From an uncultured Candidatus Nitrosopumilus sp. (GTDB lineage Archaea; Thermoproteota; Nitrososphaeria; Nitrososphaerales; Nitrosopumilaceae), in NCBI GenBank assembly GCA_951812655.1, contig OX638319.1, positions 558,001-622,000 on the forward strand: a DNA stretch of 64,000 bases. Reading direction: 5' to 3'. The position numbers were made by a program, and so were the translations under genes. Below, piece by piece: positions 59,840 through 61,707 of this stretch. Positions within the stretch are counted from its first letter, which is position 1; each line of letters begins with the position of its first letter. The notes under the pieces are model-generated. The model worked only from the letters and a program-made list of their open reading frames with translations. It was not told where the DNA came from and did not search any database.

Positions 59840-59937
59840 AGGAGAGGAAAAAGATACTGCTAATTTAAAGAATTATTTTTCAAAATCATGTTGGTTGTGT
59901 AGTGTAAATACATATCAGATTGGCAATAAACCCTGAC

Positions 59938-60144
59938 ATGGAATGGGTTTTGGCAATGGTTGCAATTCTCTTTTTGACGGTGGGCTTTATCGGCCATGCG
60001 TTTGAGATGAGAAAGACGCGTATGATCGAACATGGTGACAAAGAACTGGGCTCGATCAACATCTTTGCAAACAAGAAAAATTTCAAATGGTATGCGATGA
60101 TTGGAATTGGAATTGTTCTGTGGATGATGGCTGAGCGTACATAG
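59938..60144 (+). CDS. Small membrane protein (68 aa)
   Basis: A 68-residue protein: an N-terminal helix (MEWVLAMVAILFLTVGFIGHAF), a basic/charged middle (EMRKTRMIEHGDKELGS) and a second helix (WYAMIGIGIVLWMMA). I chose ATG at 59938 with a TATA-like taaatacat about 30 bp upstream; an in-frame TTG at 59920 is too near that box. Function unknown. Just after its stop lies the candidate RNA at 60175. Confidence 0.68.
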   Translation: MEWVLAMVAILFLTVGFIGHAFEMRKTRMIEHGDKELGSINIFANKKNFKWYAMIGIGIVLWMMAERT

Positions 60145-60174
60145 GAGAACTATATAGATCATCTCTAAATAGTA

Positions 60175-60283
60175 GCGATCCGTAAGTATAGTGTCGCGTG
60201 TTTTGGGTAACGCCGGACTGACTCTAGATAATGGTCCAAGAACAAACCCATGATGGCGTTTACAGGTGAAAGCCCGTAACGTC
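60175..60283 (+). ncRNA. Candidate structured non-coding RNA
   Basis: Between two convergent genes the sequence is unusually GC-rich for this genome and folds. The strongest element is a hairpin at 60255-60283: ggcgtttacaggt, loop gaaa (a GNRA tetraloop), gcccgtaacgtc, with 11 pairs, one bulge and one mismatch. Other elements: gcgat/gtcgc (60175-60179 with 60193-60197), ggac/gtcc (60215-60218 with 60234-60237), tgggt/accca (60204-60208 with 60246-60250). TATA-like stretches lie at 60149-60172. Not recognised as tRNA, RNase P, 5S or SRP RNA. Confidence 0.5.
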
Positions 60284-60291
60284 ACTTTACA

Positions 60292-61707
60292 TTATACAAA
60301 ATCTATTTGTGAAATTTCTTGATGTATTGCCCTGATTGCTTTTCTAACGTTGTCTTCCTTGTCTTCCATTACGATGATAATCCGGGATGTTTCTTCTTGT
60401 GCATCCATGTTCAAAATGTTTAATCCTGATTGGCCAATCGTTGCACTAGTTCTTGAAGCTACTTGTTGTACTCTCCACATCTCATCGCCGATGAGCGTGA
60501 TCACTCCTCTGTCATATGTGATTGTTGCAAGCGAATCAAATCCTAGTAGGTATTTTTCATTTCTGTTCACGTATTCTCCATCTAAGAACAGTATACGAGA
60601 AAACTCTATTCCGTCTTTTGTAAATGGTGACAGAATGATGAATTCACTGTAGTGTTTGTCCTTTTCTAGCGATGTTAATAATTTTTGAACCGCACTTGTC
60701 TCCATTCTGAAAATAGCACAATTCTCTTTTCCTGTAACTATCTTGATGGGGTGACCATTCTGTTCATCCACAATTCTCTTAACCGTGGTAATCTTCTCAG
60801 GGTTTTTCATGTTGGTAATTGTGATTGGCACATCGACTCCGTTCTCGACTATTTCTTTGATTGCAATGGGATCGAGAATCTTCATTCCAAACATCCCTGC
60901 AAGTCTAGCTTCATTGTATGACAACTGAATGATTTCTCTCAATTCCAGTTCCACTATTTTTGGATCTGCCGAAACAACCGAGCTGTCTTTTTCGAAGTCT
61001 ATGCTGGTTTCGTATTTTTTATGGAATAGTATTCCCAGATCTGCTGCTGTTCTGTCTGAACCTCCTCTCTCGTACGTTGTGGTAATATTGTCCACAGTTT
61101 TCCCAATGAATCCTCCCATGGTTACGACCTCATTTTCTTCTACCATATCTGCCGTTTTTCCCATCTTTTCTCTGGATTCTGCAGCAAGGAAATTTGTGAA
61201 TTCGATGTTGTTATCGGTGATGATTGGCCAATCTTCGTAGTTGATTGCTGCAGCCTTGATTTGGTTGCTTCTTAGAATGTAATTCATGACGTGTGACATC
61301 AAAATCTCTCCTGAAAATGCCAAGGCACGTGAACGTGTCTCGTTGACAAATTCCTTGGCTTCAAATGCCTCATTAAGTGCCTTTTGTGCTTTTTCTAGGT
61401 GAAAACTAATGACGTTTTGACAGTCTGTCTTATTTTCGGAATCTACCATCTGCAAAATTTTTTGATATGTTGATTTTACAATGTCTAGAGATGGGGCGAC
61501 TCCGTTTTCGGCATTTCTGCCCTGCTCTAAGATGATGTCAGTAAGTGAACGTTTTTTTCCATTATGCATGGTTAGTGGTGCTGAAAATACTGCGATGATT
61601 TTAGAATTTTTTTTCAAATTTGCAATTCGTTGAAGGATTTTCGGAATCGTCAGTCCATCTGGACCTATTGCACTGCCACCAAATTTTGCAACTACCAACT
61701 TAGTCAT
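60292..61707 (-). CDS. lysC: Aspartate kinase
   Basis: A 471-residue protein. KFGGSAIG (residues 8-15) is the N-terminal aspartokinase signature, and TYERGGSDRTAADLG carries another conserved catalytic segment. Two C-terminal ACT domains follow (about residues 320-470), indicating feedback control by an amino acid. It phosphorylates aspartate, the first step toward lysine, threonine and methionine. Length is usual. It lies 45 bp downstream of the glycosyltransferase gene. Confidence 0.94.
   Translation of the reverse strand: MTKLVVAKFGGSAIGPDGLTIPKILQRIANLKKNSKIIAVFSAPLTMHNGKKRSLTDIILEQGRNAENGVAPSLDIVKSTYQKILQMVDSENKTDCQNVISFHLEKAQKALNEAFEAKEFVNETRSRALAFSGEILMSHVMNYILRSNQIKAAAINYEDWPIITDNNIEFTNFLAAESREKMGKTADMVEENEVVTMGGFIGKTVDNITTTYERGGSDRTAADLGILFHKKYETSIDFEKDSSVVSADPKIVELELREIIQLSYNEARLAGMFGMKILDPIAIKEIVENGVDVPITITNMKNPEKITTVKRIVDEQNGHPIKIVTGKENCAIFRMETSAVQKLLTSLEKDKHYSEFIILSPFTKDGIEFSRILFLDGEYVNRNEKYLLGFDSLATITYDRGVITLIGDEMWRVQQVASRTSATIGQSGLNILNMDAQEETSRIIIVMEDKEDNVRKAIRAIHQEISQIDFV

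Follow-up and report, generated by a model that had tools for sequence, protein, structure and literature searches.

A candidate stand-alone small RNA gene with a likely pseudoknot, conserved next to lysC in the Nitrosopumilaceae

What is encoded in the interval 60146-60289, which separates a small membrane-protein gene (59920-60144, plus strand) from lysC (60292-61707, minus strand) in the genome of an uncultured "Candidatus Nitrosopumilus" species? This genome (G000) is a single contig of 1.67 Mb, and the window analyzed here is the 64,000-nt stretch that covers its positions 558001-622000. An earlier note, made from the letters alone, had proposed that the interval contains no supported gene in any frame and may specify an undescribed small RNA or a switch. 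The main features of the locus, as delimited by comparison of homologous loci, are the following.

59920-60144, plus strand: small membrane-protein gene, a conserved 74-aa open reading frame (ORF) with no Pfam match
60146-60161, plus strand: upstream palindromic element, consensus TGATCTATATAGATCA (from 114 distinct homologues), here GGAACTATATAGATCA
60166-60171, plus strand: TATA box TAAATA (part of TCTAAATA); the first RNA base follows 30 nt downstream
60196-60289, plus strand: predicted small RNA of about 90-95 nt (covariance-model match at 60195-60289, 105 bits)
60292-61707, minus strand: lysC (AA_kinase), convergent with the RNA, tail to tail

An ORF check of the interval agreed that no frame holds a supported gene. 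Homologous sequences carry one-base indels inside the conserved core and loop (e.g., L133, L159, and L061), so a reading frame is excluded, and a protein-coding reading of the core was rejected. ARAGORN detects neither a tRNA nor a tmRNA in the interval. The GC-rich pocket that had drawn attention to it does exist; however, it is mild, with 44% in a 100-base window versus 30 to 46% around it. The folding energy of the region is likewise ordinary on either strand (z = -0.14), and it is therefore comparative evidence, not energy, that establishes the RNA.

This sequence is widespread within a single family. A blastn search of 250 Nitrosopumilaceae genomes (E ≤ 1) returned a match in 216, most of them strong, with those near E = 1 attributable to chance. 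Of 400 genomes of the class, 173 gave a match to a covariance model (R1) built on helices P2, P3, and P4 only; these belong without exception to the Nitrosopumilaceae and represent 17 genera. Named records with the core motif come from Nitrosopumilus, Nitrosarchaeum, Nitrosopelagicus, Cenarchaeum, Nitrosotenuis, and Nitrosotalea. When 39 genomes, including 24 that belong to other families, were searched with permissive settings, nothing significant emerged outside the Nitrosopumilaceae; the matches in those 24, at E values of 0.2 to 5, look like chance. Weak matches in G047, G136, and G216 and a partial one in G150 (C87) were judged to be chance as well. Some assemblies contain two full-strength copies (G174, C1 and C5; G114, C15 and C65; G002, C161 and C165), which, at least in G174 with its 9% contamination, may reflect mixed strains. 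Conservation is concentrated in the RNA: the core of about 55 nt has a mean pairwise identity of 0.917, versus 0.79, 0.88, and 0.49 at codon positions 1, 2, and 3 of lysC in the same loci.

The predicted fold consists of four helices, two of which cross each other. Its elements, all on the plus strand, are as follows.

60196-60199: P1 5' strand, GCGU, pairing with ACGC at 60210-60213; invariant in 93 of 93 sequences
60200-60203: loop L1, GUUU, U-rich (alignments A1 and A4)
60204-60208: P2 5' strand, UGGGU, pairing with ACCCA at 60246-60250 and crossing P1
60210-60213: P1 3' strand, ACGC, partner of 60196-60199
60215-60219: P3 5' strand, GGACU, pairing with GGUCC at 60233-60237; paired in 100% of cells
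60223-60228: UCUAGA, a palindrome in the P3 loop that is identical in all 93 sequences; a possible kissing-dimer site
60233-60237: P3 3' strand, GGUCC, partner of 60215-60219
60238-60245: 3' part of loop L3, the nearly invariant A-rich linker AAGAACAA
60246-60250: P2 3' strand, ACCCA, partner of 60204-60208
60254-60284: P4, a 3' hairpin with 12 modelled pairs and, in this species, a GAAA loop at 60268-60271
60254-60263 and 60265-60267, with 60272-60284: the paired strands of P4

In an alignment of 93 distinct sequences (A4), changes on both sides of a pair were found at 16 of 26 pairs, in 138 cells. Sliding the partners by 1 to 3 columns gave at most 24 such cells, none of 500 shuffles reached the observed value, and a first set had shown covariation too. 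Mapped on a tree of the LysC protein, the changes recur: 9 times at one P3 pair, 4 to 16 times at P4 pairs, and 1 to 7 times at the variable P2 pairs. P2 displays G-C to A-U, G-C to C-G, and U-A to A-U replacements (in L116, it reads UCGGU:ACCGA, with G-C swapped for C-G), P3 has two pairs with both-sided changes, and all 12 modelled pairs of P4 have them. The structure is thus kept by compensatory change, as in a genuine small RNA gene. G-U pairs (172) far outnumber A-C pairs (22); therefore, the plus strand is the RNA strand, and an RNA on the minus strand was rejected on the same counts. The long hairpin with a GNRA tetraloop noted earlier at 60255-60283 is P4, slightly extended; its tetraloop sequence is not kept across genera. 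Beside this hairpin, the earlier note had mentioned three more complementary helices, and further helices do exist; covariation supports P2, P3, and P4 and is silent on the invariant P1.

The same homologues define a promoter. In nearly all of the 114 distinct upstream sequences, a TATA-like hexamer starts 28 to 31 bases before the invariant GCGUG, with a spacer whose letters vary and whose length is constant; an RNA with its own promoter at such a constant distance has the layout of a stand-alone gene. The palindrome lies 15 bases farther upstream than the hexamer, and the full -45/-30 arrangement is present in 73 of the 114. Because of the TATA spacing, the transcription start is placed at G60196, and the 3' end would fall within the T-rich stretch after P4. 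The TATA-like elements reported at 60149-60172 on the plus strand are indeed there, at 60150-60171; the promoter is better delimited as 60146-60171 and the RNA as 60196-60289. The palindrome at 60146-60161 is a probable transcription factor site. When its 14-base core was searched in 9 genomes with one mismatch allowed, it was found at the promoter of the RNA in 7 (the promoter copies in G023 and G052 are more diverged) and elsewhere in only two places, one in G083 and one in G052. Among these 9 genomes, it is nearly unique per genome.

Could the RNA be a cis-acting appendage of its neighbors, i.e., a 3' untranslated region or a bidirectional terminator of the membrane-protein gene and lysC? 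Synteny alone would fit, as a convergent lysC follows in 69 of the 70 loci examined and a recognizable small membrane gene precedes in 62, several of the exceptions being contig edges; a P4 hairpin beside a T-rich stretch would fit as well. However, the RNA has its own promoter at a constant spacing, its core is conserved far beyond the needs of a terminator, paralogues occur elsewhere next to other genes, and two genomes of the g7 group have the small membrane gene adjoining lysC with no RNA between them. These data make a cis element quite improbable. The 74-aa membrane ORF thus adjoins the RNA in most genomes and is present without it in those two. A further neighboring ORF reads as a branched-chain aminotransferase; in G055, G041, and G249, the aminotransferase adjoins lysC, with neither the RNA nor the small membrane gene. 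The RNA was either lost in some lineages or acquired within the Nitrosopumilaceae, and since some lineages do without it, it is not essential everywhere.

A riboswitch, or another two-state switch, is equally doubtful. The earlier note had pointed out that gtaacgcc (60207-60214) can pair with ggcgtttac (60255-60263) and would compete with the long hairpin. In this sequence, six contiguous pairs can form; a run of six is available in only 23 of 93 homologues, with none longer, while P4 is the structure kept by compensatory changes. Conserved, mutually exclusive structures are therefore not seen here. The RNA lies tail to tail with lysC and is thus not a leader of a controlled gene, and no gene follows on its strand. 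The proposal of two conformations is not supported. A pseudoknot with invariant loops does resemble ligand-binding aptamers, and a ligand-binding RNA that acts in trans is compatible with the data.

The crossing helix was overlooked at first, as were the palindromic loop and the paralogues; the initial description was right on an undescribed structured RNA and wrong on part of its fold. P1 crosses P2, and together they likely form an H-type pseudoknot. In the model, P3 and P4 yield -17.0 kcal/mol, adding P1 gives -20.8, and adding P2 gives -21.9, each addition being favorable. Since P1 shows no variation within the main family, covariation says nothing about it there, and support for the pseudoknot is indirect. 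Of the two crossing helices, P2 covaries, whereas P1 varies only as a wobble form in one paralogue (GUGU:ACGC in L338) and in two borderline candidates, L339 (positions 212-286) and L340 (positions 1326-1420), with GAGU:ACUC and GCGUC:GACGU, respectively. Both have TATA boxes at -28/-29, the same helix order, and a UCUAGA loop; their E values of 0.025 and 0.042 are per genome in a search of 39 genomes and could be due to chance, and for one of them a P1-like helix appears in 16% of shuffles. If real, they would widen the family and provide support for P1. A U-rich L1 and an A-rich L3 recur in pseudoknots that form triple helices.

The paralogues show how far the letters can change. G000 itself encodes a second copy at C1:1579657-1579742 (L332:1501-1586; 57.5 bits, E = 4.7e-11), with P2 reading UCGGU:ACCGA, a TATA box at -30, and a compensated P3 (AGGAC:GUCCU); the upstream palindrome is absent from it. 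This copy sits in an ORF-poor stretch between an ilvD gene and a gene for a DM13-domain protein (L332:2193-2942) with about 14 tandem six-residue MMEEKS repeats. Significant paralogues are also found in G096, G118, G150, G032, G024, and G015, and the neighbors of the paralogues are unrelated: ilvD, flagellin and AhpC, a PLP enzyme, or a methyltransferase. By sequence comparison, then, the dispersed paralogues keep the fold with other letters. Copies at unrelated sites might suggest a selfish or ribozyme-like element, one of which settled in a conserved place. That reading is the least probable of those considered: synteny is constant across genera, no copy was found in viral contigs or phage records, and no evident mobility gene occurs among the tested neighbors of the solid paralogues.

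In every copy, the P3 loop contains a 6-nt palindrome: mostly UCUAGA, with CCUAGG in L333 and AUCGAU in L336 and L337. CCUAGG requires two symmetrical changes, whereas AUCGAU may arise by losing the central UA. This suggests that the RNA could form loop-loop dimers; shuffled P3 loops contain a 6-nt palindrome in 8 to 22% of cases, and dimerization is therefore suggested rather than shown. A still more specific picture is that of a new class of archaeal regulatory RNA, in which the pseudoknotted RNA works as a loop-loop homodimer, paralogues are kept apart by their different loop palindromes, and the main copy answers to a dedicated transcription factor with one site per genome; this is an unlikely elaboration.

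Is this a known RNA in disguise? Searches with the covariance models of Rfam 15, suggested in the earlier note, gave no match in the interval at E ≤ 5; in 14 other homologous loci, nothing matched where the RNA lies. The RNA is usually present as one copy, in one conserved place, and in most of the family, which would fit a housekeeping or guide RNA (C/D, H/ACA, RNase P, SRP, 5S, or tRNA) too diverged for Rfam. Nevertheless, we regard it as very unlikely: the RNase P RNA of this genome (RF00373) is at C1:1017452-1017732, and not at this RNA (the SRP RNA of the genome was not located), there is no tRNA, many homologues have CUAA in place of the D-like CUGA, contrary to a C/D box guide, and the rRNA complements are only 13-nt matches with many G-U pairs, none of them convincing. 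There is no adjacent ToxN-like toxin that would indicate a type III toxin-antitoxin system, in which the antitoxin is a pseudoknotted RNA, the neighbors being lysC, the membrane ORF, and the aminotransferase-like ORF. In the open-access literature, we found no report of a described small regulatory RNA in Nitrosopumilaceae. Absence from Rfam, covariation, the constant-distance promoter, and family-wide conservation strongly support the proposal of an undescribed small RNA, and on this comparative evidence 60196-60289 is the founding member of a genuine and hitherto undescribed family of RNA genes, which appear to be stand-alone small RNA genes.

Such a gene most likely encodes a regulatory or scaffold RNA that acts in trans, on messengers or on proteins. 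In the former case, it would be an antisense RNA that uses the P3 loop (RANUCUAGAUAA), the linker, or its 5' end for pairing and is folded for stability only. The P3 loop and linker are highly conserved, and this is a common mode of action of promoter-driven, free-standing small RNAs, seen in bacteria as well as in some methanogens and haloarchaea. However, in 9 to 10 genomes, complements of the P3 loop, the linker, and the 5' end were few beyond the RNA gene itself or close in number to reversed-pattern controls, and the sites complementary to the loop have no orthologous target across genera. This search was coarse, with orthology checked for the loop sites, and imperfect or short seeds would escape it. 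We consider antisense action a possibility of some weight, clearly behind protein binding. The lack of a conserved antisense target in this search or of a notable rRNA complement and the placement of the most conserved residues in the pseudoknot and loops favor the latter reading: a stand-alone small RNA gene with a TATA promoter and a near-unique palindrome, covarying P2, P3, and P4, and paralogues, whose product would work by binding protein. We would give this full description about an even chance.

According to the protein-binding reading, a factor that reads the palindrome would switch the RNA on or off, and transcription from G60196 would give an RNA of about 95 nt. P1 and P2 would form the H-type pseudoknot, with the U-rich L1 and A-rich L3 in its grooves; P3 would project from L3 and expose its self-complementary 6-nt loop, through which two molecules may kiss; and P4 would protect the RNA or end it. 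Once folded, the RNA would act in trans, singly or as a loop-loop dimer, by binding a protein, as a ribonucleoprotein scaffold or a protein-titrating regulator, with protein binding as its main mode in preference to pairing with messengers.

Parts of this design are familiar. The telomerase RNA core and the SAM-II and preQ1-II riboswitches are H-type pseudoknots with a U-rich L1 and an A-rich L3. They share the strand order and loop base bias of the present RNA, which differs in having a hairpin inserted in L3, neither a polymerase partner nor a downstream gene to regulate, and no Rfam match. The retroviral dimer initiation site is a palindromic kissing loop; a self-complementary 6-nt hairpin loop is common to both, whereas here there is no packaging signal and the dimer is a prediction. 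In Methanosarcina mazei, sRNA154 is reportedly free-standing, strongly conserved, confined to one lineage, and preceded by a palindromic regulator site at its promoter. The likeness, with no homology known, is that of a lineage-restricted archaeal small RNA with a palindrome at its promoter. The Nitrosopumilaceae, which rank with the most abundant archaea, drive ammonia oxidation in the ocean. Tan1 of Thalassoarchaea, a noncoding RNA found by expression whose function is open, is likewise restricted to a marine archaeal lineage and outside Rfam; it belongs to another phylum and is 229 nt long, and no relation has been shown (PMC5069720).

Such strong conservation, together with a near-unique palindrome at the promoter, points to a function shared across the family that has so far escaped annotation. 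The RNA offers a handle on that function: a single locus with a single promoter element, a fold that is defined, and lineages in nature that do without the RNA.
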